Assembly: GCA_032595675.1 (NCBI GenBank)
Contig: JAVQMD010000001.1
Coordinates: forward strand, 1,706,640 to 1,770,639
Length of the DNA stretch: 64,000 bases
Reading direction: 5' to 3'
Origin: Candidatus Electrothrix rattekaaiensis
GTDB taxonomy: Bacteria > Desulfobacterota > Desulfobulbia > Desulfobulbales > Desulfobulbaceae
Under the pieces are notes generated by a model. That model worked only from the letters and a program-made list of their open reading frames with translations. It was not told the origin of the DNA and searched no databases. The stretch's first letter is position 1. The number at the start of each line of letters is the position of its first letter. Made by a program: the position numbers and the translations under genes. Shown here piece by piece: positions 4,202 through 42,972 of the stretch.

Positions 4202-4444
4202 GAAGTGTTCTCCGGTTTATGGTAATTCATCCAATCTTTTTTGTTTTTTTATCCTACGGCATGCGCGGCATCTGGTACGGTGTCCAACGAGTTTCAAATC
4301 AGGTCGAATCAGGTCAAAGTAAATCCCGCGCTGTCGCGGTTATAACTATAGCGTGAATCCTGAAAAATGCATTAATCTTTTCCCCCCTTTTCTGGACCAA
4401 GCACACTGCTGCGGAGATATTCTTTTGTTTTTTGGTAAAAAGCG

Positions 4445-5212
4445 ATGAAAGAGAAGAAAAAACAAAGAGGTCGGACGGATGCGCTCGGCTTTTGCCGGAA
4501 CTGCGAACAGGAGCATTCTCTGTCGGCAGACACTGCTCTGGAACCTGCTTTCCAACTGATGAAAACGCTGGCAGACAAAGACCGGATCGACTTTGTGTTG
4601 CCGGATCAACACAAGGATCCCGCCTGCGCTATAGATTATCTCTGGGGACCGGCTCGTGGCAAGATGTTCGGTGTCTTGGTTGCGCAAACGCCGAGCGGAG
4701 AACAGGTCATTCTCAAGGCCTTTTCTGGTCAATATAACGGACTCTGGCAGGTTCCAGGCTGGGTAGGGCCGGTCTTTGATTGCAAGGTCTTTCATCAGGT
4801 GCATGATGAGGAAGAGAGAACCATAAAAAAACTGACTCGCCAAATTGACCGGCTTGTACCTAGTTGTCCAGAACGGCAGAAACTTGTTCAGCAGCGCAAA
4901 AAAAAATCACAACAACTCATGCGGGAAATCCATAGCCTGTACCGGTTACGGAATTTTCACGGCCAAACGGTAGGCCTGAAAAAAATCTTTGGTTCGGACA
5001 AGGGCGTGCCCACCGGTACCGGTGATTGCTGCGCCCCGAAGCTGCTTCAACACGCTGCCTTACATGGCCTGACTCCGCTGGGCCTAGCTGAGTTCTACTT
5101 GGGCAAGGAAAATTCCTCAGGAACTCGCCAGCATGGTTATTTTTACCCCTCCTGCCGGACAAAATGCTACCCGATTCTTGGTTTTATGCTTTGCGGGGCC
5201 GGAGAAGATTAG
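4445..5212 (+). CDS. N-terminal domain of a long RluA-type pseudouridine synthase, as a separate gene
   Basis: A 255-residue protein containing GVPTGTGDCCAPKLLQHAA, GLTPLGLAEFYLG and HGYFYPSCRTKCYPILGFMLCG. From knowledge of the family, these are the signatures of the N-terminal extension of the about 550-residue RluA-family synthases of Vibrio and Shewanella. Here the extension is its own gene: it ends with TAG at 5210-5212, and the catalytic half starts 2 nt later in another frame. A charged coiled segment lies around residues 120-160. A CRNC pair near the N-terminus and the later Cys residues could bind metal (inference). Confidence 0.75.
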   Translation: MKEKKKQRGRTDALGFCRNCEQEHSLSADTALEPAFQLMKTLADKDRIDFVLPDQHKDPACAIDYLWGPARGKMFGVLVAQTPSGEQVILKAFSGQYNGLWQVPGWVGPVFDCKVFHQVHDEEERTIKKLTRQIDRLVPSCPERQKLVQQRKKKSQQLMREIHSLYRLRNFHGQTVGLKKIFGSDKGVPTGTGDCCAPKLLQHAALHGLTPLGLAEFYLGKENSSGTRQHGYFYPSCRTKCYPILGFMLCGAGED

Positions 5213-5214
5213 CG

Positions 5215-5955
5215 ATGAACAAGGAATTGGAAATCATTTTTGCCGATCAAGAGCTGGTTGTGGTCAATAAACCCGGTGGTTTGCTGGCTGTGCCCGGACG
5301 AGGGCCGGATAAACAGGACTCCGTGGTCAGCCGTTTCAAAGCGCAGTTCGCTGATGCCATTGAGCAACCAGCGGTCCATCGCCTGGACATGGCCACCTCC
5401 GGCCTGATGGTCTTGGCCCTGACCGCAAAGGCTCATCGTCATCTCAGCGGCCAATTTTCACAGCGGCAGGTAGAGAAAACATATGTCGCCCTGCTAGACG
5501 GGACTGTGGCCGGGGAAAGCGGCGAAATAGAGCTACGCTTTCGTCTGGACCCGAACAATCGCCCCTACCAAGTCTACGACCCTCTACAGGGCAAGCTCGG
5601 TATCACCCGTTGGCGTCGCCTTGCCCTCTCTAGGACTCTCTTCGAAAGCGAGGTTCGCCCGCAGACCCGAATGGAGTTTATTCCGCTGACCGGCAGAACC
5701 CACCAGCTCCGTCTCCATGCGGCCCATCCTTTGGGACTCGGCTGCCCTATTATCGGCGACAGCCTGTACGGCAGCGGCAATATGGGAGACCCCATGTATC
5801 TTCATGCGGCCCGATTAGCCGTTACCCACCCTATCAGCAAAGAGCGGCTGGAATTCTACTCTCCTCCACCCTTTTGCGATGCAGTGCTTGAAAAAGGAGA
5901 AGGACAGGGAACCTTGCCGCAGGCCGGTATTCCAGCCCGTTCTGGATCAAGGTAG
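5215..5955 (+). CDS. RluA-family rRNA pseudouridine synthase, catalytic domain
   Basis: This 246-residue protein isomerises uridine to pseudouridine in structured RNA, most likely 23S rRNA. The catalytic aspartate is Asp58 in HRLDMATSGLMV, and the conserved GRTHQLRLHAAHPLG and PIIGDSLYG motifs follow. The ATG at 5215 is chosen because GGAGAAG lies inside the end of the upstream gene, and because the domain begins MNKELEIIFADQELVVVNKP. The 3' end overlaps the convergent gene at 5856-6191 by about 100 bp. Confidence 0.92.
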   Translation: MNKELEIIFADQELVVVNKPGGLLAVPGRGPDKQDSVVSRFKAQFADAIEQPAVHRLDMATSGLMVLALTAKAHRHLSGQFSQRQVEKTYVALLDGTVAGESGEIELRFRLDPNNRPYQVYDPLQGKLGITRWRRLALSRTLFESEVRPQTRMEFIPLTGRTHQLRLHAAHPLGLGCPIIGDSLYGSGNMGDPMYLHAARLAVTHPISKERLEFYSPPPFCDAVLEKGEGQGTLPQAGIPARSGSR

Positions 5956-6191
5956 CGGGTAATCCCGATACCGATACAGAGGAGCGTGAAGCTGAAGATC
6001 ACCACAAGAAGAATGATGATCGGGATATGATCATAGATTCTCTGTCTTGGCTTACTTCGTCTCCTTCTGGAAGTGCTTTTCTTTGCCGCTTTTTTCGGCG
6101 TGCTTTCTGCGGGCTTTTTCGGTGCCTTGTCCGCAGGCTTACCGCCAATCTGCTTAGGAAGCTTTTCTTGTATTTCTTGTTCTGAGTTCAC
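5856..6191 (-). CDS. small basic single-pass membrane protein
   Basis: A 111-residue reading frame with a GTG start two bases after the mqsA stop. The first 50 residues are rich in Lys, Ala and Pro (KKPAESTPKKAAKKS) and end in RRRRSKPRQR. One clear membrane helix follows (IPIIILLVVIFSFTLLCIGI). The family is unknown to me. The last 30 residues overlap the pseudouridine synthase gene on the other strand, so the true stop region is under constraint from both strands. It is a plausible but not certain gene. Confidence 0.5.
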   Translation of the reverse strand: MNSEQEIQEKLPKQIGGKPADKAPKKPAESTPKKAAKKSTSRRRRSKPRQRIYDHIPIIILLVVIFSFTLLCIGIGITRYLDPERAGIPACGKVPCPSPFSSTASQKGGGE

Positions 6192-6193
6192 AG

Positions 6194-6595
6194 CTATGAC
6201 ATCCTGACTTCATTCAACAGATCAGGGTGACGATCAAGCAACTTGAGCAGCTTCACCAAAGACAGGGGCGGGCGTGTCCTCCCGTTTTCGTAGCGAGAAA
6301 AGGCATTGATGCCACCACCGAAAATTTCAGCGGCAGTACGCTGGTCAAGTCCGAGCTTCTTCCGTACCTTGGCGATAAATCCGGGATCAACAACAGCCGC
6401 ATTGACCTGCTTGGAAAAAACTCGCATTTCCTGCATCACCCGGTCCGATTCCGAGGCATCCAGAACCGATTCAGCACAGGCCGGGCAGAAGTCACCTGTC
6501 ACAGAAGGGATAACCGTATTTTCACCCCTATAGGCATAAGGGAGGTCGCGGGTATCATGTATCAATTCGGCAGCTCCGCAGACAGGGCATTTCAT
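6194..6595 (-). CDS. mqsA: MqsA-family antitoxin
   Basis: A 133-residue antitoxin with the two-domain MqsA layout. The N-terminal zinc domain has CPVC at residues 3-6 and a second CPAC pair. The C-terminal Xre-type helix-turn-helix includes RTAAEIFGGGINAFSRYENGRTRPP. MqsA binds MqsR and represses the operon. The ATG at 6595 gives the standard MKCPVC start and overlaps the end of mqsR closely. A candidate operator is at 6905-6919. Confidence 0.95.
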   Translation of the reverse strand: MKCPVCGAAELIHDTRDLPYAYRGENTVIPSVTGDFCPACAESVLDASESDRVMQEMRVFSKQVNAAVVDPGFIAKVRKKLGLDQRTAAEIFGGGINAFSRYENGRTRPPLSLVKLLKLLDRHPDLLNEVRMS

Positions 6596-6597
6596 CT

Positions 6598-6894
6598 TCA
6601 CAACTCCTTGAAAGAAACAATCAGCAGATCATCGACAACTGTCAGCTTCAGATAGATATCTCCCGCAGGCGTATTCGGTCGATACACATCCTGCCAAATT
6701 CTGTGGTCGGCGTAGGTGGTCATGCTTTTATGGAAATCAGTCGGTGAGAGCAGTTTCACCACCTCCAGCATATCGGAATAGTCCATGCCCAGAGCAGTCG
6801 CACCGACACGAGCCGAGTGCGTGGTCCGCACTCGGCCCTGTTCCACAATTTTTTTAACGACACTCAGGCCGCAATGCGGGGTTCGCTTTTCCAT
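6598..6894 (-). CDS. mqsR: MqsR-family mRNA interferase toxin
   Basis: A 98-residue RelE/RNase-Sa-fold toxin that cleaves mRNA, in E. coli mainly at GCU. It starts MEKRTPHCGLSVVKKIVEQGRV and contains DYSDMLEVVKLL, FHKSMTTYADHRIWQDVY and YLKLTVVDDLLIVSFKEL, which match MqsR throughout. Toxin before antitoxin is the usual mqsRA order. Only about 20 bp separate it from the upstream membrane ATPase gene, so its promoter must overlap the 3' end of that gene. Confidence 0.95.
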   Translation of the reverse strand: MEKRTPHCGLSVVKKIVEQGRVRTTHSARVGATALGMDYSDMLEVVKLLSPTDFHKSMTTYADHRIWQDVYRPNTPAGDIYLKLTVVDDLLIVSFKEL

Positions 6895-6904
6895 AGTGCC
6901 ATAT

Positions 6905-6919
6905 TAACCTATTTGGTTA
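6905..6919. promoter_or_regulatory. candidate MqsA operator
   Basis: The palindrome TAACC-TATTT-GGTTA lies 11 bp upstream of the mqsR start. The known E. coli MqsA operator is AACCT-N(2-4)-AGGTT, which this resembles closely. It overlaps the last codons of the upstream ATPase gene. Binding is inferred from the match and the position. Confidence 0.65.
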
Positions 6920-9388
6920 GCACAGGCAAGATGAAATACTCCCTTGCCCCGCCAGTATCCATCGGCGCAGCAACGGCACCCTGAATACCCAGCCCTCACC
7001 CTCCTGCGCCAGGATTTCCTTACGCACCAGCAGGGATGCTGCTCCCCTCTCCTCTTCATTTGGCTCCCGCTCCTCAGCCACGGCACGAAGCAATCCCTGT
7101 TGTTCCTCGCTGAGTACGCTCCAGAATTCCCGAAAGACCTGATAGCCCCGCTCAAAGACCGCTGGCAAGACCATTTCCAAGTCATCCATTTGCACAGTCT
7201 TCTCTTTTTTCTTGTTCAGCTGCTCAACAAGTTCATGGCAGAGAAGCTGGGTAAAATAGGGCTGGCCACCGGTCAGATCCCGGATTGCATGAGCCACAGC
7301 AAGCGGATAGATATCCGGGAAATCCTCTACCGGGTGTTGAATCAACTCCAGGGCATCGGCATCGGCTAGATAACTCACCCGCAGGGTCTCACAGTTGATC
7401 AGGTAGTCGCTCCAGTAAGCGGGCAATTCCTCCGGGGTCAGGGCACCGGTGAAAAGCAGAGTCCAGCGGTCGCGGTGTTGGATAAGGTGGCGGAGGAAGT
7501 TAAGCGGGGCACGGCTGCCCGTGGCTATCACGATTTCATCTAGGCGTTCAAACTCGTCCAGGCAGAGAAGCAGGGTTTTATCGGGCACGGCCTGTTCCAC
7601 CGCATCAATCCAGCGGCGCAGGGTGACAAAAGGGTCATCGGATGGGGTAACGCTCTCCAGAACAGGGAGTTTCAGGCTATGTACCTTGCGGGCTGAACGG
7701 ATGATTTGTTCAGTAAACTCCTCGGCAAAGCCACGCAATGTGCTGGTCGTTGCCAAGGACTGCCCGTCAATGAGTAAAGGCAGGATATCCGAGGGCAGCC
7801 ACTTGGGCAGGTAGTTGAGGGTGGATGTTTTGCCGCTGCGCCTGCCTCCGTGCATGACCAAGGTGGGGTGCTGGGTTGAAAGAGTCAGGGTTTCGATTTG
7901 GCGGAACAGGTCACGACGGCCCTTGAACAGGGGGCCTGCCTTGTTCGGGTCTAGGGCCGGTCCTGCAAGGTAAACCTGAGGGATCTCGTCGCTCTGGGCT
8001 GCCTGTTCGCGCAAAGTGCGGCGGGCTGTCTCCAGGATGCGCTGCCAGCTGCCCAGAACCGAGCCAAAAGTGGTAGCCTCACGGGCCGAGGCGGTTGCCA
8101 AGGCATTGCGCTGTCGCGCTATCTTTTGGGTAATCTTGTCCAGTTGTTGGGCTTGGCGATAGAAGGAGCTACCCTCCAAAGCGGCGGCCACATCCTGCGA
8201 GATCTCCAGGCAGGTAGAAAGCCCGGCTGATTGCTGATCGGCTATCCAGTCTAACTGGTTGCGTATCGCTACAATATCCCGTGCTGTTTGGCAGCGGCTG
8301 AGTTCTTCAGCTGCAATTCTGTTGATGGCCTTGACTGCGGTTTTCTGCTGATTGGTGGAGGTGATCAGATAATCGATGGTCTGACGGGCTGCTGCTTGGT
8401 TTTCTTGGTAGGCTTCGGCGATGAAGCCGGATATGAAGGGCAAGGGAAGAACAATCAGTTGATCGTAATAAGAGGGGAGGCAGGACAGACGGTGAGCGGC
8501 ACGAACTGGTGCAAACTTGAGAAAGGTTGTCCAGACCAGCTCCGGTAGCCAAAAATAGAGGCGCAGTGTTCCGCATAGAAATAAAGCATTGAATGAGACA
8601 CCGAGTGCCACGCCGACCGCAGTCCCTTTCCAACCACTGAACAGCACTCCCAAAGTTATACCACCAGCAATAACGCCTGCTGTGGTTCTCCCGACCTTGT
8701 CTTTGGCTACCATGCTGTTGATCATGCCGAACACCGCACCGTTCATTACCCCGAGCGCAACTGCTTTTTCTACTCCGACTGACATGGTAAACAGAATATC
8801 GTCCATCATGCAAAAAAAAGATCCTTCCGACATGCCCAAGGCTGTACCTGCCACAATACGGGATACAGTCACCCCCCCCATTGCTCCTAATATCCCTACC
8901 ACTACGCTGCTCACTACGCCTAAGAATAACCTTCTAACAAAGAGATTATCTATAGACTGTTGGAACCCCAAAAAAACAACGCTCAATGCAAATACTATCA
9001 CGATCACCAATACCCTGGCTGTTTTTTCGCTCATTCTCCTCATACCCACTCGAAAAACTAGCTGTCCGAACAACCATCCCAATAAAAACAAACTGCTAGC
9101 CAGCCAATTGAAGCGAAAAACAGTACCGACAGTGAGTCGAGCTGTTACTTCAATCAGTAGCCCCAAAAAATAAAGCCCCGCTATCGGCACAACCACAGCC
9201 AACCACCAACCCTGGTCATCATAGCGTTGCAACTGCGGGTTAGCCCTGGCCTCTGCCGAGCGGCGAAAAATGTTGTCTGCGTAGGGATTGGTGATCTCCG
9301 GGCAGATAGCCTGCACATGTCGCTTCAGGGTGTAGGGCTTGAAATAAATCCAGTACAGGAGTTGCAAGCATTCTTTCACATATTGCAT
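6917..9388 (-). CDS. polytopic membrane protein fused to STAND/AAA-type ATPase
   Basis: An 823-residue protein using the ATG at 9388; a TTG 39 bases upstream is the only longer option. The N-terminal half holds many hydrophobic segments, including Gly/Val-rich ones. A helical linker of about 130 residues follows. The C-terminal third is a P-loop ATPase: Walker A GGRRSGKTS at about residue 514 and Walker B LLLCLDEFERL at about 608, then a winged-helix-like end. Signalling-type STAND ATPases often end in or start with an effector; here the effector would be the membrane part. Function is unknown. A smaller relative lies at 9849-10889. Confidence 0.75.
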   Translation of the reverse strand: MQYVKECLQLLYWIYFKPYTLKRHVQAICPEITNPYADNIFRRSAEARANPQLQRYDDQGWWLAVVVPIAGLYFLGLLIEVTARLTVGTVFRFNWLASSLFLLGWLFGQLVFRVGMRRMSEKTARVLVIVIVFALSVVFLGFQQSIDNLFVRRLFLGVVSSVVVGILGAMGGVTVSRIVAGTALGMSEGSFFCMMDDILFTMSVGVEKAVALGVMNGAVFGMINSMVAKDKVGRTTAGVIAGGITLGVLFSGWKGTAVGVALGVSFNALFLCGTLRLYFWLPELVWTTFLKFAPVRAAHRLSCLPSYYDQLIVLPLPFISGFIAEAYQENQAAARQTIDYLITSTNQQKTAVKAINRIAAEELSRCQTARDIVAIRNQLDWIADQQSAGLSTCLEISQDVAAALEGSSFYRQAQQLDKITQKIARQRNALATASAREATTFGSVLGSWQRILETARRTLREQAAQSDEIPQVYLAGPALDPNKAGPLFKGRRDLFRQIETLTLSTQHPTLVMHGGRRSGKTSTLNYLPKWLPSDILPLLIDGQSLATTSTLRGFAEEFTEQIIRSARKVHSLKLPVLESVTPSDDPFVTLRRWIDAVEQAVPDKTLLLCLDEFERLDEIVIATGSRAPLNFLRHLIQHRDRWTLLFTGALTPEELPAYWSDYLINCETLRVSYLADADALELIQHPVEDFPDIYPLAVAHAIRDLTGGQPYFTQLLCHELVEQLNKKKEKTVQMDDLEMVLPAVFERGYQVFREFWSVLSEEQQGLLRAVAEEREPNEEERGAASLLVRKEILAQEGEGWVFRVPLLRRWILAGQGSISSCLC

Positions 9389-9424: not shown

Positions 9425-9545
9425 CAAACCTGCCCAGCGTTAAAACGCTGGGCTATTCTCGTGCTGTCCCTACGGGACGCTTGGTCCCCAATAGCCCCGA
9501 AGGGGCGACAGAACATAGCCCGGTGTTTCAACACCGGGCCTAAAA
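9425..9545. repeat. multi-hairpin REP-like element
   Basis: Four consecutive perfect or near-perfect hairpins: CCCAGCGTT-AA-AACGCTGGG, TCCC-TAC-GGGA, GCCCC-GAA-GGGGC and GCCCGGTGTT-TC-AACACCGGGC. The element occupies the gap between two divergent genes. The compact set of GC-rich hairpins resembles the REP/BIME-like elements mobilised by REP-associated tyrosine transposases. No transposase is nearby. Confidence 0.75.
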
Positions 9546-34853: not shown

Positions 34854-35213
34854 TGCATTTTCCTCCTTGGGACTCTTTTGTTACTGTTTATTTCTCTGTG
34901 CGGAAAGTCGTTATCCGCGCGAGGGGTTTCCTTGCGTTGCAATCCTGCCTGCAACCTGCTATCTTTTTTAATCCATTATAAGAAAAAAGCATCCAAAAAT
35001 TGTATTTTTTCCGTTGCCCAAGGTGTTCCTCAAGGTGTTCCTCAAGGTGTCACTCAAGGTGTTCCTTGGGCCGGGATTGTATCCCCCCTTATAGGCGGAT
35101 TCACGGCATCTCGTAGGTGCCGTTCCCTGTGACGACCTAGAATTGTGAGGGCCTATCAAGCAAAGGGTAATAACGTAAAAATACCATCAACGCGACATCG
35201 TAGAGGAAGCAGT
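34854..35213. other. divergent intergenic region with four 12-bp repeats
   Basis: Holds the promoters of the binding-protein gene and of the selD-like gene. At 35019-35066 the unit CAAGGTGTTCCT occurs four times in tandem (the third copy has CACT), and the array is flanked by the inverted pair CCCAAGG/CCTTGGG. No gene is supported. Confidence 0.75.
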
Positions 35214-36359
35214 ATGCGCCTGTTGAAGAAACAAAGCCGCAGTGAAACATCCAAAACATCCAAAATATCTAAAATATCAAAACCATCTAAACCCTGCGCT
35301 TGAACACCGAAAAACGATTCGACAGTTCTGTCGAACGCACTTGCGGCATTCCCCCCGCCGGATGACGCTAACCTGCTGGTTGACCATGCAACGGCGGACT
35401 CCACCTCGATTTATCGTTTCTCCCCTGAAAGAGCATCCATCAACACCGTGAGCTTTATCACGCAGCCGATCGCTGATCCCTACTGGTTCGGTCAAATTGC
35501 TGCGGCCAACGCCCTTGCCAAGATCTACGCTGTGGGCGGCAAGCCGGTCACAGCCCTCAATCTCATCATGTTTCCCAATAACCAGTTAAGCAAGGGCACC
35601 TTGCTGGAGGTGCTCAGGTTAGCGATCTTTCCTGCCAAGCAACTGGATATGGGGATATTGCAGGAGATTCTCCGTGGTAGCCATGATAAGGTGACTGAGG
35701 CCGGTGCCTGCTTGACAGGCGGTCATTCAGTGCATGACGCGGAACCCAAATACGGGCTTTGTGTTAACGGGGTGGTGCATCCAGAACGAATCCTCACCCA
35801 TGTCGGGGCACTGCCCGGCGATGCCCTTATTTTAACCAAGCCTCTGGGGTCTGGCGTGCTCTTTGCTGCGGTCCATGCGGGTAAATACCCTTTGAAAATG
35901 CTGGAAGAGGAGACCTTGCCCCTTTTGGCCTCTCTGAACAACAAGGCTCTGGAGGCGGCCCTTGCCGTTGATATCCATGCCTGCGCCGATGTGAGTGATA
36001 CCGGGATGCTCGGCTGCCTGCTGAACATCGCCCTTGCCTCTCAGGTCAGCGTGCTGCTCAAGTATAAGAAGCTTGCCTTTTATCCGGGTGCCGCAGAGAT
36101 GTATCAAAAAGGCGTGAGCACGGACAGCAACCGGTCAAACCGGGCCTTGCTGGCTCAACATGATTTGAAGATGCAAACCAGTCTTTCAGCGGCTGAGACG
36201 GAATTACTGTATGATCCGCAGACTTCAGGTGGGTTGCTGCTGGCCCTGCCTCAGGAGCAGGTCGCGGATTTACTGGCTGCATTGCGTACAAACGGCGTGG
36301 AGGCGGCTTGCTGTGTTGGAGAGATTATTGCGGGGCCTGTGGGGATCAGGGTTGAGTAG
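35214..36359 (+). CDS. selD: SelD-like selenophosphate synthetase homologue with in-frame UGA
   Basis: The frame starts at ATG 35214 with GAGGAAG 6 nt upstream and runs 381 codons, interrupted only by TGA at 35301-35303 (codon 30). That codon sits at the position of the catalytic Cys17 of E. coli SelD, with the conserved Lys three residues later (U-T-P-K). A SECIS-like hairpin follows. Downstream homology is strong (DPYWFGQIAAANALAKIYAVGGKP; LTGGHSVHDAEPKYGL; LLYDPQTSGGLLLALP). However, the positions of E. coli Asp51, Asp68 and Asp91 are Ser63, Ser80 and Lys103, TGFG is altered, the GAG motif before the active site is replaced by a Ser/Lys-rich stretch, and a 19-residue block near residue 118 is duplicated. 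It may be a pseudoenzyme paralogue or a decaying gene. The symbol marks homology, not proven activity. Confidence 0.75.
35318..35335 (+). promoter_or_regulatory. candidate bacterial SECIS element in the selD-like gene
   Basis: The perfect 7-bp stem TTCGACA/TGTCGAA closes the tetraloop GTTC. The loop begins 22 nt after the UGA, inside the bacterial SECIS range, and starts with GU as in the E. coli fdhF element recognised by SelB. Confidence 0.75.
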
Positions 36360-36492: not shown

Positions 36493-36582
36493 AGAAAAAT
36501 CCATTTGAGCAGTGAAACGTGCAATCGCGTTGATGGCAGCAAGGATATCGGCGAGAAAATGAGAGACAATACGACTGCTCAT
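36493..36582 (-). pseudogene. HEPN toxin (DUF86 type), first 30 codons only
   Basis: The minus strand begins ATGAGCAGTCG, overlapping the MNT stop by 4 bp, and encodes MSSRIVSHFLADILAAINAIARFTAQMDFS, the start of HEPN/DUF86 toxins. The frame then runs directly into the three-hairpin element at 36491 and ends inside it. The RX4-6H active-site half is missing, so the toxin is presumably dead. Confidence 0.7.
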
Positions 36583-36875
36583 AGATAGACGACCTCATCA
36601 AGGATGTGTTGGCGGAGCTGCGGTTTCAGCCCTCTGCTGGTGACAAGATCAACCTTTAGGCCGAGCAGGTCACTCAACATATTTTCGATTTCGATCAGCT
36701 CGATAAGGCTCGGAGCTTTGTCGTAGTCAATCAGGACATCCACGTCGCTTCCATTACGCTGCTCTCCTCGGATATACGAGCCGAATATGCCGAGCCTGCT
36801 GATTCTGTATTTGTTTTTCAGCAGGGATTTCTGTTCGGCAAGGCGATGTTTAACAGTATCAAGTGAGTTTTTCAT
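36579..36875 (-). CDS. MNT-domain nucleotidyltransferase (HEPN/MNT antitoxin)
   Basis: A 98-residue minimal nucleotidyltransferase. The motif GSYIRGEQRNGSDVDVLID at residues 32-50 gives the GSxxRG...DxD signature. In HEPN/MNT modules the MNT protein neutralises HEPN by AMPylating it. Here the partner downstream is broken, leaving the antitoxin alone between two copies of the 101-bp element. Confidence 0.9.
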   Translation of the reverse strand: MKNSLDTVKHRLAEQKSLLKNKYRISRLGIFGSYIRGEQRNGSDVDVLIDYDKAPSLIELIEIENMLSDLLGLKVDLVTSRGLKPQLRQHILDEVVYL

Positions 36876-37317: not shown

Positions 37318-37548
37318 CTCTCTTGACGTAAGCGGTTGTTCTCTTAACGTGAGAGGTCGTTCTCTTAACGTGAGCGGTGCTTCTCTTAACGTGAGAGGTC
37401 GTTCTCTTAACGTGAGCGGTGCTTCTCTTAACGTGAGCGGTGCTTCTCTTAACGTGAGCGGTGCTTCTCTTAACGTGAGCGGTGCTTCTCTTAACGTGAG
37501 AGGTGCTTCTCTTGACGTGAGCAGTTGTTCTCTTAACGCGAGAAGCGG
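37318..37548. repeat. 21-bp tandem repeat array, about 11 units
   Basis: Each unit contains TTCTCTTAACGTGAG followed by CGGTG, AGGTC or a close variant. Most units are identical, so the array is recent or homogenised. Read in one plus frame it gives SLNVSGA/SLNVRGR heptapeptides, but no ribosome site or domain supports translation. It ends about 170 bp upstream of the 116-aa gene. Confidence 0.92.
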
Positions 37549-38156: not shown

Positions 38157-38435
38157 ATGATTATCAAGTTCAAGCATAAAGGACTCAGGAAATTGTTTCA
38201 ATCAGGTAACATAGCCGGGATTCTTCCAGGACATGCGAACAGGCTTCGCAAGATTCTTGCCTTGCTTGCAACGGCAGAATCTCCTGATGATCTGGACCTG
38301 CCCGGTCTTCGTTTGCATGCACTGAAAGGAAGCAGGGCCGGAACATGGTCGGTGACGGTCAGCGGAAACTGGAGGGTGACTTTTCGATTTCACAATGCTG
38401 ACGTAACGGATGTTCATTACGAAGATTATCATTAA
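38157..38435 (+). CDS. higB: HigB/RelE-family toxin
   Basis: A 92-residue RelE-fold protein: [33 protein letters not shown], then [28 protein letters not shown] and DVHYEDYH at the end, matching ribosome-dependent HigB mRNases. The toxin precedes the antitoxin, which is typical of higBA. The pair lies inside the cassette bracketed by the two copies of the 115-aa gene 3' end. Confidence 0.93.
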
Positions 38436-38446
38436 CGAGGTTGATT

Positions 38447-38731
38447 ATGGAGATGTACAATCCTCCGCATCCGGGAGAGATTATCCGGGAATTCTGTCTG
38501 GATGCCTTGGAGTTGAGCGTGACTGATGCGGCCAAGGCGTTGGGAGTGACACGCAAGAGGTTATCTGTTCTGCTGAACGGTCGTTCCAAGATAAGCCCGG
38601 AAATGGCCTTGCGGTTGTCCAAGGTCTTCGGACGCACTCCCGAAGGTTGGCTGAAACTTCAGCTTCAGTTTGACTTGGGCAAGATCAGGAAGAAGGTGGA
38701 TTTGAGTAGGTTGAAACGAATGGAGCTGTAA
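38447..38731 (+). CDS. higA: HigA-family antitoxin
   Basis: A 94-residue Xre-type protein starting [62 protein letters not shown], the complete HigA helix-turn-helix. GAGG lies 6 nt before the ATG at 38447. It neutralises HigB and represses the promoter. It ends 11 bp before the duplicated fragment. Confidence 0.95.
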
Positions 38732-38934: not shown

Positions 38935-39123
38935 ATGCAGGTCGAGAGTATAAAACAGGAAGCTGGCAGAATTTTAAACCGATTGCCTGATAACGCCACA
39001 TGGGATGATCTGATGGAACAGATCTATGTTCGGCAGACCATTGAAGCGGGCATCAGCGACAGCGATGCCGGGCGGACGGTTGATGTTAAGGAAGTACGCA
39101 GAAGGTTCGGGTTGACGGAATGA
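38935..39123 (+). CDS. small antitoxin-like protein of a RelE/ParE pair
   Basis: A 62-residue protein, MQVESIKQEAGRILNRLPDNATWDDLMEQIYVRQTIEAGISDSDAGRTVDVKEVRRRFGL. Short proteins with NATWDDLMEQIYVRQ are regular partners of RelE/ParE toxins. GAGGAGG precedes the ATG. The stop overlaps the toxin start by 4 bp (ATGA). DNA binding is not evident, so it may be a toxin-binding peptide only. Confidence 0.85.
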   Translation: MQVESIKQEAGRILNRLPDNATWDDLMEQIYVRQTIEAGISDSDAGRTVDVKEVRRRFGLTE

Positions 39124-39434
39124 AGGTTCGATGGACAGAAAATGCTGTCGGGCATCTTTGCAGTATTTACGAATATATTGCAACCAATTCTCCCGCCTAC
39201 GGAAAAAGGATGGTTGACAGGATCACCCGGCGTTCGGAGCAGATTGCTGATCAACCGTTTTCCGGGAGAAAAGTACCGGAATATGATGCGAATGATATCC
39301 GGGAGCTGATAGAGAGTCCTTATCGAATCATCTACCGGATAAAGCAGGATCAGATTGATATTATCGCGGTTATTCACGGAGCAAAATTGCTGCCGGATGA
39401 GGTTTTACAGGCGGGCAATGAAGACGAAAAGTAA
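39120..39434 (+). CDS. RelE/ParE-family toxin
   Basis: A 104-residue ParE-like protein: MKVRWTENAVGHLCSIYEYIATNSPAYGKRMVDRIT, FSGRKVPEYDANDIRELIESPYRIIYRI and DIIAVIHGAKLLP. The layout fits gyrase-targeting ParE or RelE-type toxins. Its last 17 bases overlap the start of the 1184-aa nuclease-like gene, so all three genes appear to form one operon. Confidence 0.9.
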   Translation: MKVRWTENAVGHLCSIYEYIATNSPAYGKRMVDRITRRSEQIADQPFSGRKVPEYDANDIRELIESPYRIIYRIKQDQIDIIAVIHGAKLLPDEVLQAGNEDEK

Positions 39435-42400
39435 ACAACTGAGCAATCCGTTCTCAACCGGCGGCGGAGGTGTGCATTTTGAGGCGCACGTCTTGGCCTC
39501 GTTTGTTGTTTTGATGCTCAGTGGCGGTTATGCGCCTTGTCTTCCCTGCTGGCCAATTACAAAGATCAAGCCACAAGGAAAAATTGATGGCTTTGACACG
39601 GATGATCTCATTGTTTTTGTTGAACGAGGTGATACAAAGGAGCAGCGAAAACTTCTTGGACAAGTTAAACATGAAATTGCCTTCACCCGAGGTAATAAAG
39701 AATTGCCGGAAGTGTTTCAAGCTGCGTGGAATGATTTTAATAATCCTAAAAAATTCAGGCAACGCAAGGATGCTATCGCGCTCATTACAGGACCGTTAAG
39801 CAAAACTGATTTCCGTAATGTCCATTGGCTGCTGAATCAGGCCCGGCATACCAAAGATGCTGACGAATTTTACAGGCATGTTGAACGAGCAAAATTTAGT
39901 CCTCCCAAGGCTGAAGAAAAATTGGGTGTAATTCAACATCACCTGCAAAAGGCCAATAATAATTCTCCCCTTTCGCAGAACAAGCTGTATTCATTTCTCA
40001 ATCATTTTTATCTACTGGGCTACGATCTTGGTGATGAGATCGGTGTTACTCTATCCCTTCTATACTCACATATATCCCAATTCAACCAACAGACTCCAGA
40101 GTGGATTTGGCCGCGAGTCGTTGAGTTTGTTCAGATCTGGAATAAAGATGCCGGAACAATCACTCTGGATAACCTCCCTGAAGATTTACGAGACGCCTTC
40201 AAACGGCCAGTTGTTACTCATATTCCGCCGGAGCTGGTCAATCCTCGTCTTGAGTTGGTAAAGACTGATTGGCGAAAACATAAATACGCAACTGATCTTG
40301 CTTTGCTGTTGTTGGTCGGTGCATGGAATGAGAAAAACGAAGCAGATGTTTCCATTGTCACCAAGATAGTAGGTCAGGATTATCATGATCTTGCGCCAAA
40401 AATCCAAGAGCTGCTTCAAGTTGCTGACAGCCCTCTTTCCTTGCATAACGGTATTTGGAAAATCTCTAACCGTATCGAATTATGGGAACAACTTGGTTCA
40501 CGCATTTTTGATCAACATCTCGATACATTCAAGGAATGCGCTGTTTCTGTGCTGACGGAACGTGACCCGGCTTTTGACCTATCGAAAGAAGATCAATTTG
40601 CGGCGGTGAGTATTTATGGAAAGAAGTTAAAGTGGTCATCGACTTTAAAAAAGGGCTTTGCTGAAGGAGTAGCCTTGCTGGGGTGCCATCCGAACATGTT
40701 AAATAATTGTTCACAGGATAAGGCAAAGGGACCTGTCATTCATAATATTTTTGCAGATGCCGACTGGAATTTATGGGGAAGCCTGAATAATTTACTTCCT
40801 GTGCTGGCTGAGGCTAACCCAGATGAATTTTTGAGTGCTGTTGAAAACGCCTTGAGCTTATCACCTTGCCCGTTTGAAGAGCTTTTAGCTCGGGAAGGTA
40901 GTGGTGCCTTCTGGGGTAATAATTATCTAATCGGCTTGCTCTATTCGTTAGAGGTACTTGCCTGGGATGCTGAGTATCTGATACGGGTTTGCATGATTCT
41001 CGGTGAGCTTGCCAGCCGTGATCCGGGTGGTAATTGGTCAAGGCGACCGAGTAAGTCTCTTTCAGCCATTCTTTTGCCTTGGAAACCGCACACTATCGCT
41101 TCACTTGAGAAGCGCAAGGCAGCCGTTAATATCCTCTGCAAAGAACTGCCAAAAATTGGCTGGCAACTCGTTCTTGATTTTCTACCCAATCAGCATCAAA
41201 TGACATGGGGAACCTATAAGCCCTCATGGCGTGACACTATACCTGATGACTGGAAAGCAGGTGTGACGAAAAAAGAGTATTGGGAACAGGTCTCTTTGTG
41301 TGCTGAACTCGCAGTTTCTTTGGCAGGACATGATATAGACCGCCTCGGTGAGCTTACCAATCTTATTGAGAATCTACCGCAGCCTTCTTTTGATAAATTT
41401 TTGGAAGTGCTCTCTTCAGATGCTATTATAGAAATTTCTGAAGAAAAGCGATTGAGCATTTGGAATAGATTGAAAAGATTTATTGCTAAAAATAGACTTT
41501 ATTCTCAAGCTGCATGGGCATGGAATAATGAGCAGCTTGAACCTATACAAATCGTTACTGACAAGCTAACCCCGTCAAATCCATTTAACCGCTACCAGCG
41601 GTTATTTACTGATAATGATTTTGAATTTTATGGTAGCGATGACAGCTGGGATGTCCAAAAACAAAAACTCGTCGAATATCAAAAAAAAGCTCTCAAGGAA
41701 ATATTCAAAGTAGGAGGTATTGAGTCTATCATACGTTTTTCTCAATGTGGTGTTTACTCAAATCAAGTTGGAGATATTCTTGGTCAGATCGGCAATGAAG
41801 AAATAGATGCAGCTCTGATTCCTGATTATTTGGAACCGGAATGTAGCGATTTATCTTTTTTTGTTCGCTGGTACGTATTCAGTCGTTACTCTGTCCAAGG
41901 CTGGACCTGGGTCGATCTTTTAGGGGTGAATAGATGGAGGAATAGTCAGATAGGGTCTTTTTTGAGCTATCTGCCTTTCGCCAAAGAAACATGGCAAAGA
42001 GTTGAAAATTGGTTGGGTGGTGCGCATCAAGAATATTGGCTTAAAGCTGATATAAGACTTTATGATGGAGATGATAACGGGTTGAATGTTGCTCTTGACA
42101 AGCTTGTTACGTTTGGAAGGCCCCATGCTGCCCTTGATTGCATTCATAAAGTTAGAGTTTATAAACAGAAAGTCAATATAAAGCAATGTGTCAAAGTTCT
42201 GCTTGCTGCTGCACCTTCTATTTTTGACGCATCAAGTTTATTTAGTCCTTATCATACAGCACAGCTCATAAAATCTCTTCAGCAATCTCATGAAATTAGT
42301 CCAGATGACCTTTTTGACGTAGAATGGGCTTATCTCCCTTTGTTAAATGGCAATCATGGTGTATTACCAACGCTCATTGAGAATCGTCTTGCCAATGATC

Positions 42401-42972
42401 CAAATTTTTTCTCTCAAGTAACTCAACTTGTCTATCGCTCAATAAATTCTGATGCTGAAAAGAATTCCTCTGATAAAGAAAAGAACATCGCAGCAAATGC
42501 TTGGCATTTACTGCATAATTGGCGAATTCCGCCGGGAATGCAAGAGGACGGCAGCTTTGACCAAGATTATTTTTCAGGCTGGCTGGAGCGGGTTAAAAAA
42601 ATCTGCTCGGAATCTGGACATCTGGGAGTTGCGTTTAATAATATTGGATCGGTACTTATCCATTGTCCTTCCTCCCCTGATGGACTATGGATCAATAAAA
42701 TTGTGGCTGATACTCTGAATGCCAAAGACGCAGATGATATGAGATGCGGTTTCAGATCGAAATTATTTAATTCAAGAGGAGTTTATACGATTGATCCAAC
42801 CGGCAAACCAGAACGAGAACTTGCAAAAAAATACTGGCAACAGGCGGAGGATGTGGAAAATGCAGGCTACCATCGTCTTGCAGCCACGTTTAGAGACTTG
42901 GCAAAAAATTATGACCATCATGCTGAACGCATTATCCAAGAACATGCTTGCGAAAAAGAAAGAGCTGTTTAA
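39418..42972 (+). CDS. large Cap4/DUF4297-like nuclease with long helical C-terminus
   Basis: An 1184-residue protein using the ATG at 39418. The N-terminus has NPFSTGGGGVHFEAHVLASFVVLML, then DGFDTDDLIVFVE (Asp62/Asp63) and LLGQVKHEI (Gln82-Val-Lys84). D...QxK is the pattern I know from the Cap4/DUF4297 dsDNA-endonuclease branch of PD-(D/E)XK enzymes. The remaining about 1050 residues are mainly helical, probably a superhelical sensor. I see no Walker A motif, unlike Avs-type STAND nucleases. Its place behind a RelE/ParE pair in a TA-rich stretch points to anti-phage defence (inference). Confidence 0.65.
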   Translation: MKTKSKQLSNPFSTGGGGVHFEAHVLASFVVLMLSGGYAPCLPCWPITKIKPQGKIDGFDTDDLIVFVERGDTKEQRKLLGQVKHEIAFTRGNKELPEVFQAAWNDFNNPKKFRQRKDAIALITGPLSKTDFRNVHWLLNQARHTKDADEFYRHVERAKFSPPKAEEKLGVIQHHLQKANNNSPLSQNKLYSFLNHFYLLGYDLGDEIGVTLSLLYSHISQFNQQTPEWIWPRVVEFVQIWNKDAGTITLDNLPEDLRDAFKRPVVTHIPPELVNPRLELVKTDWRKHKYATDLALLLLVGAWNEKNEADVSIVTKIVGQDYHDLAPKIQELLQVADSPLSLHNGIWKISNRIELWEQLGSRIFDQHLDTFKECAVSVLTERDPAFDLSKEDQFAAVSIYGKKLKWSSTLKKGFAEGVALLGCHPNMLNNCSQDKAKGPVIHNIFADADWNLWGSLNNLLPVLAEANPDEFLSAVENALSLSPCPFEELLAREGSGAFWGNNYLIGLLYSLEVLAWDAEYLIRVCMILGELASRDPGGNWSRRPSKSLSAILLPWKPHTIASLEKRKAAVNILCKELPKIGWQLVLDFLPNQHQMTWGTYKPSWRDTIPDDWKAGVTKKEYWEQVSLCAELAVSLAGHDIDRLGELTNLIENLPQPSFDKFLEVLSSDAIIEISEEKRLSIWNRLKRFIAKNRLYSQAAWAWNNEQLEPIQIVTDKLTPSNPFNRYQRLFTDNDFEFYGSDDSWDVQKQKLVEYQKKALKEIFKVGGIESIIRFSQCGVYSNQVGDILGQIGNEEIDAALIPDYLEPECSDLSFFVRWYVFSRYSVQGWTWVDLLGVNRWRNSQIGSFLSYLPFAKETWQRVENWLGGAHQEYWLKADIRLYDGDDNGLNVALDKLVTFGRPHAALDCIHKVRVYKQKVNIKQCVKVLLAAAPSIFDASSLFSPYHTAQLIKSLQQSHEISPDDLFDVEWAYLPLLNGNHGVLPTLIENRLANDPNFFSQVTQLVYRSINSDAEKNSSDKEKNIAANAWHLLHNWRIPPGMQEDGSFDQDYFSGWLERVKKICSESGHLGVAFNNIGSVLIHCPSSPDGLWINKIVADTLNAKDADDMRCGFRSKLFNSRGVYTIDPTGKPERELAKKYWQQAEDVENAGYHRLAATFRDLAKNYDHHAERIIQEHACEKERAV

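Follow-up and report, generated by a model that had tools for sequence, protein, structure and literature searches.

The locus studied here raises the question of what a protein of the SelD family, with a probable selenocysteine (Sec) of its own, is doing in a genome that already has another one. SelD is commonly read as the mark of an organism that uses selenium, and its Sec is assigned a part in making selenophosphate. The gene, which we call selD2 (product SelD2, with SelD1 for the canonical Sec-SelD of the genus), lies at 35214-36359 (+) of the window, i.e., the whole stretch of 64,000 nt that was analysed (G000:C1:1706640-1770639), G000 being the genome of Candidatus Electrothrix rattekaaiensis, which belongs to the electron-conducting cable bacteria. 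A preliminary description of the sequence had presented it as a selD-like gene, and its outline holds: translated with TGA as Sec, the frame gives 381 residues and then a TAG stop, in agreement with model matches and alignments, and its sole interruption is the UGA at codon 30 (35301-35303), which aligns with the catalytic Sec/Cys of SelD and has a lysine (K33) three residues on. The good ribosome site it mentioned was found by eye as a Shine-Dalgarno-like GAGGAAG (35202-35208, +), GTAGAGGAAGCAGT upstream of the ATG. Gene callers that stop at UGA would begin selD2 78 codons late, and the mechanical ORF list does just what had been foreseen, starting a 303-aa frame at a GTG (35448-35450). Between the ATG and the UGA, 9- and 18-bp repeats (35245-35291) encode a Lys/Ser-rich N-terminal tail, whose length varies among species in the alignment of copies. 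Farther 5' in the window, a 12-bp unit, CAAGGTGTTCCT, stands in four copies at 35019-35066.

Is the UGA read? On its 3' side we confirmed the perfect 7-bp stem with loop GUUC that had been described, a SECIS-type hairpin (UUCGACA-GUUC-UGUCGAA; 35318-35335, +). The bacterial SECIS model in section 5 of PMC13188914 asks for a loop of 3-9 nt with a G within its first two positions, an upper stem of 4-16 bp, a UGA-to-loop distance of 16-37 nt and a minimum free energy of -7.5 kcal/mol or lower. Compared with that section's geometry, the selD2 hairpin lies within range (4-nt loop GUUC, 7 bp, 21 nt), and with one flanking base per side it folds at -7.4 kcal/mol, 0.1 short of the published threshold. 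The 45 nt around it, a second small hairpin included, reach -9.6 kcal/mol, an unremarkable stability (19 of 200 shuffles fold equally well; z -1.3), and the SelD1 hairpin of the same genome is stronger (-11.2). Since thermodynamic stability alone is not beyond chance, we count conservation as the better evidence. All six copies known from the genus share the 18-nt hairpin without a difference; within its six codons one nucleotide of 18 varies, and that one is not in the stem, whereas the rest of the gene varies at 457 of 903 (and at 239 of 301 third positions outside the hairpin). Among 302 six-codon windows in selD2 it is the only one that low. The same window of the canonical copy, with 2 variable nt in 18 and 11 windows out of 283 equally low, is not as exceptional, because the canonical protein is more conserved over its whole length. 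Taking the selD2 and canonical rows together, all seven base pairs are standard throughout the 16 distinct sequences (100%), one pair being C-G in the 12 canonical sequences and U-A in the four of selD2. This change affected both sides of the stem and also two residues of the protein (Ser for Pro, Asn for Asp), and is a single event that is visible in several rows.

A plain stop at the UGA, with translation starting at 35448, is disfavoured by the hairpin and by the purifying selection on the codons from the UGA to the internal GTG (dN/dS 0.11-0.37 in 14 SelD2 pairs, with dS 0 in one pair). With the UGA kept in six genomes of the genus, an identical hairpin and purifying selection on the stretch from UGA to GTG, we regard the reading of UGA30 as Sec, by way of the hairpin directly 3' of it, as well supported by comparison of sequences, and Sec is probably inserted into SelD2. 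Two findings had been named in advance as speaking against read-through, and neither was made. Among the genus copies compared, no SelD2 homologue begins 3' of the UGA. The machinery is likewise present in the window's genome, with scores of 626 for selA (cut-off 267.9), 375.9 bits for selB (cut-off 242.25) and 74.8 for tRNA-Sec (gathering threshold 47); across the eight genus genomes selA is above cut-off in all, tRNA-Sec in seven and selB in six, the misses falling in incomplete genomes. YbbB exceeds its cut-off in none of the eight (weak 20-24-bit matches in seven), and YqeB was found in none; therefore, of the three known selenium traits, Sec use alone was found in the genus, and on this basis we reject a second trait requiring a SelD of its own.

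SelD2 is not the only SelD of its host. Searching the genome gave two selD loci with a single in-frame TGA apiece, namely the window gene and SelD1 (G000:C1:1925417-1926430), which lie about 182 kb apart and share 59% identity as counted by the search. SelD2 is carried by six of the eight genus genomes (G000, G001, G003, G004, G006 and G007; G003 is Candidatus Electrothrix aarhusensis, MTKO01000008.1 and MTKO01000131.1). SelD1 is present in G000, G003, G004, G006, G007 and G002 (Ca. Electrothrix gigas AU1_5, QYLO01000022.1), thus in all five SelD2 carriers besides G001. There SelD2 alone was found, and the missing canonical copy is uninformative because its locus runs off the contig end, SelD1's neighbour lying 265 nt from it. 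No SelD of either kind was found in G005, which is 69% complete. In E. gigas, SelD2 is absent from the syntenic place and no remnant was found there; between the same neighbours (FolC, HNH and cytochrome c peroxidase, followed by a LivK-like protein) lies another gene, an unclassified 716-aa ORF (L178, G002:C71, about 4275-7743). When 257 genomes of the order were searched, the six SelD2 genes scored at least 472 bits and the next match, at 439.5, was a canonical SelD. By these searches SelD2 is a paralogue of SelD restricted to the genus.

Genomic neighbourhood was also considered as a clue to function. In four of the six genomes (L034 in G004, L035 in G007, L033 in G003, L036 in G001) SelD2 follows within about 100 bp, on the same strand, one or two di-haem cytochrome c peroxidase genes. 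In G000 and G006 these genes are located elsewhere, and terminator-like hairpins were seen by eye between the peroxidase gene and SelD2; for both reasons we set aside a peroxidase-SelD2 operon as a functional clue.

What sets SelD2 apart is its active site. The four aspartates that bind metal and ATP phosphates we take, partly from alignment, to be D51, D68, D91 and D227 in E. coli numbering, and the E. coli numbers given below for SelD2 positions come from its alignment with E. coli SelD. The relevant portion of PMC4210487 lists as essential the four aspartates, the Sec/Cys-x-x-Lys motif and Asn87, and the corresponding residues of L. major SelD are given in a section of PMC7595633. SelD2 shares with canonical bacterial Sec-SelDs the fold, the N-terminal CxU loop and a UGA with SECIS-type hairpin at the same place, at 55-61% identity to relatives. 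The loop itself, Cys28-Ala-Sec30 (35295-35303), has its Cys and UGA in all six copies. Unlike the canonical proteins, SelD2 has Ser63 in place of D51 (35400-35402; Ser in six of six), Ser80 in place of D68 (35451-35453; Ser in five, Glu in one) and Lys103 in place of D91 (35520-35522; six of six), which leaves Asp259 (D227; 35988-35990; six of six) as the one retained metal aspartate, and Cys268 replaces the loop histidine (H236; 36015-36017) in every copy. The lysine three after Sec (Lys20 in E. coli) is kept in four copies and is Thr in G004 and G007, and the Asn87 equivalent (N99) is kept in five and is His in G001, so the Sec loop is not fully fixed.

Our control set held 126 other SelD rows (16 genus or order relatives and 110 loci, some being the same gene from two collections). 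The D51, D68 and D91 columns are Asp in 124 of them; of the two remaining rows, L071 is the E. aarhusensis SelD2 once more and L143 a fragment of 30 residues. The D227 column likewise has Asp in 124 rows, and the two that lack it are fragments (L143 and L161). More broadly, 158 columns are near-invariant across SelD1 and 95 other SelDs, and at 31 of these all six SelD2 proteins are changed, a count that left out 20 distant SelDs and five of seven duplicate or fragment rows (L071, L072, L075, L090, L098, L143, L161). The new residues are fixed in all six, e.g., S36, S63, T64, Q84, K103 and C268. All six also carry an insertion of about 19 residues (120-138; 35571-35627) which is missing from the canonical SelDs examined and occurs in one control row, again L071. 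It resembles the next 19 residues and is apparently a tandem duplication; for each of the six copies, no more than 2 in 20,000 shuffled versions of the inserted segment scored as high. Several Desulfobulbales relatives have two or three Sec-containing selD genes (G088:C49, L197; G093:C75, L196; G091, G094, G133 and G148), side by side on the same strand in two genomes. A further 29 SelD rows include 13 copies from these six genomes, and the four aspartates are kept in 29 of 29 and in all 13. Duplication by itself does not entail their loss.

The preliminary description thus caught the ordinary part of this gene and missed the unusual part. A Sec-bearing SelD-family gene with a SECIS-type hairpin it is, its UGA stands at the catalytic Sec/Cys position, its first 78 codons belong to the coding sequence and the genome is equipped to decode Sec; the organism's ordinary canonical SelD it is not, as ruled out by the second, canonical copy and by the lost aspartates. 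With three of four aspartates missing and some 19 residues extra, SelD2 is probably not a working selenophosphate synthetase. It could still be an active one with a rebuilt metal site, using other carboxylates or a single metal and tuned, for example, to other conditions. Such an enzyme would fit its score against the selD model TIGR00476 (255.5 bits, cut-off 125), the retention of Sec and one metal aspartate, of CxxK in four and of Asn87 in five of the six copies, and the failure to find a canonical copy in G001. We consider it unlikely: one of the three aspartates, all replaced in every copy, has given way to a lysine, the near-invariant columns are altered throughout, a canonical copy accompanies SelD2 in the five other carriers, the gap in G001 falls at a contig end, and the match to PRK00943 stays below cut-off (217 against 299).

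The overall architecture is nonetheless predicted to be that of SelD. Both AIRS Pfam domains (PF00586 and PF02769) are above cut-off, and the AlphaFold model (mean pLDDT 71.1, pTM 0.73; poor in residues 1-47 and 121-175) retrieves solved SelDs first in Foldseek, with 2yye_A as best match (E 1.3e-28, TM 0.70 by query) and 3u0o_A next among other species. The Foldseek search concerned the SelD2 model only, and the model of a canonical SelD, the E. gigas copy, has pLDDT below 50 in residues 1-150. The predicted structure thus supports the view that the AIRS and AIRS_C fold is kept. In a tree that left out the seven rows listed above, SelD2 forms one long-branched group inside the Desulfobulbales-type SelDs. 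A tree holding it together with Electrothrix SelD1, computed on 62 of 125 rows that the analyst selected, was better by 2.49 log units (p-AU 0.51), and in seven columns the two share residues that are rare elsewhere. An origin of SelD2 from Electrothrix SelD1 is accordingly not rejected by the tree, and it is not proved.

Could SelD2 simply be a duplicate on its way to a pseudogene, with UGA and hairpin as leftovers? Its protein changes faster than the canonical copy: by Nei-Gojobori estimates for the region after the UGA, which are rough as many dS values exceed 1, dN/dS is 0.11-0.25 in 14 of 15 SelD2 pairs (0.38 in the very close pair G004/G007) and 0.04-0.10 in the 15 SelD1 pairs. A value 2-4 times that of the canonical copy makes some relaxation possible. 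The E. aarhusensis gene has a frame change near its 3' end (L033/L071, about 6331-6462), and E. gigas lacks the gene altogether at the syntenic place. The frame change, however, stands about 130 nt before the point where its contig breaks off and could reflect a sequencing error. In the other five copies, at 61-80% identity, the frame stays open up to a common end, and many pairs have dS above 1. Mean dN/dS is far below 1 in every region, the insertion included (0.14-0.18), and neither an identical hairpin nor new residues fixed in all six copies would be expected of decay, which we find quite improbable. For the same genome pairs the dS of SelD1 and SelD2 is alike (0.51 and 0.56 for G000/G006), as expected under vertical descent. 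On these estimates SelD2 is under purifying selection, weaker than that on SelD1.

We therefore lean, with somewhat better than even confidence, towards selD2 as a translated and selected selenoprotein gene that arose when a selD with Sec was duplicated and that afterwards gave up the chemistry by which selenophosphate is made. Its product would probably be a selenoprotein pseudoenzyme, in which Sec and fold are kept and the synthesis is gone. With Ser, Ser/Glu and Lys in place of D51, D68 and D91, the phosphates of Mg-ATP would no longer be held as in SelD, in which case SelD2 would make no selenophosphate; close to where the phosphates sit, K103 possibly takes the role of a metal ion. The CxU segment at the mobile N-terminus might take up selenium or carry out thiol/selenol redox chemistry, perhaps with Cys268, and the remaining body might act as a scaffold for binding, with SelD1 as one conceivable partner. 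Thus a role in selenium handling, in redox chemistry or as SelD partner is what we infer. Whether Electrothrix has here a selenoprotein of a new kind, namely a pseudoenzyme of SelD fold that lacks the Mg-ATP carboxylates and keeps its CxU for a different chemistry (to carry selenium, to serve as a redox switch or to act on SelD1 as a subunit), is in our estimation an even bet.

A more specific and tentative proposal makes SelD2 a regulatory subunit that throttles SelD1 in mixed dimers, the read-through of its own UGA reporting the selenium supply. SelD structures are generally dimeric. That of L. major is so described in part of PMC7595633, and the predicted SelD fold of SelD2 would suit such pairing. 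As the genus uses the Sec trait only, with no YbbB above cut-off and no YqeB found, a second consumer of selenophosphate does not explain the two copies. Against mixed dimers one may hold that SelD2 is unlinked to the canonical gene, at a distance of 182 kb.

Several known systems come close to SelD2. According to PMC4561486, animals have duplicated SPS proteins with another function, the extra copies being neither Sec nor Cys forms. Like SelD2, metazoan SPS1 (human SEPHS1) is there a paralogue of a Sec-SPS retained beside the working enzyme. SPS1 does not synthesise selenophosphate; it has lost Sec/Cys and still binds nucleotide (ADP and phosphate in the title of 3fd6), and SelD2 would be the reverse. 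SEPHS1 even appears in a DNA-bound complex, going by the title of 9hjt. The relevant portion of PMC4210487 likewise describes an archaeal SelD-like family of Sulfolobales and Thermoproteales, a SelD relative that is, as we propose for SelD2, thought to have another role; it is reported to keep all important residues, with Cys instead of Sec, in genomes without selenium use, whereas SelD2 has lost aspartates and has Sec. The oxidoreductase/SelD-related fusion model TIGR04369 ('fusion_not_SelD') matches SelD2 weakly over its SelD part (106.5 bits), far under the cut-off of 700, and SelD2 has no oxidoreductase part. The excerpts we had of two reviews of prokaryotic selenoproteins (PMC13188914 and PMC9312934) mention the duplicated animal SPS and the archaeal SelD-like proteins, and contain no mention of a bacterial Sec-bearing SelD without the aspartates. 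Among open-licence papers we found no bacterial protein like SelD2 and nothing relevant on Electrothrix or cable bacteria in connection with selenium or selenoproteins, which is no proof of absence.

If our reading is true, a selected paralogue that has the costly Sec and lacks the metal and ATP residues would separate Sec from synthesis, and the Sec loop alone would become directly testable. SelD2 would then be a mirror image of animal SPS1, in which the nucleotide site was kept and the Sec lost. It would also follow that neither counts of selD nor matches above the cut-off of curated models equal enzymes.

Several other features were observed in the window. On the 3' side of selD2 lie genes of toxin-antitoxin type (36579-36875 on the minus strand, 38157-38731 and 39120-39434), namely a nucleotidyltransferase, a HigB-like toxin with its HTH partner and a ParE-like toxin. 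A 21-bp unit is repeated 10.7 times at 37319-37542 within a 102-aa ORF (SLNVSGA-type repeat). Two matches to the Acido-Lenti-1 RNA stand face to face at 9433-9479 (+) and 9493-9538 (-), with 55.5 and 37.6 bits. Finally, a 1205-aa ORF at 39355-42972 has no Pfam match, and relatives of it are found beside SelD2 in G004 (65%) and G007.
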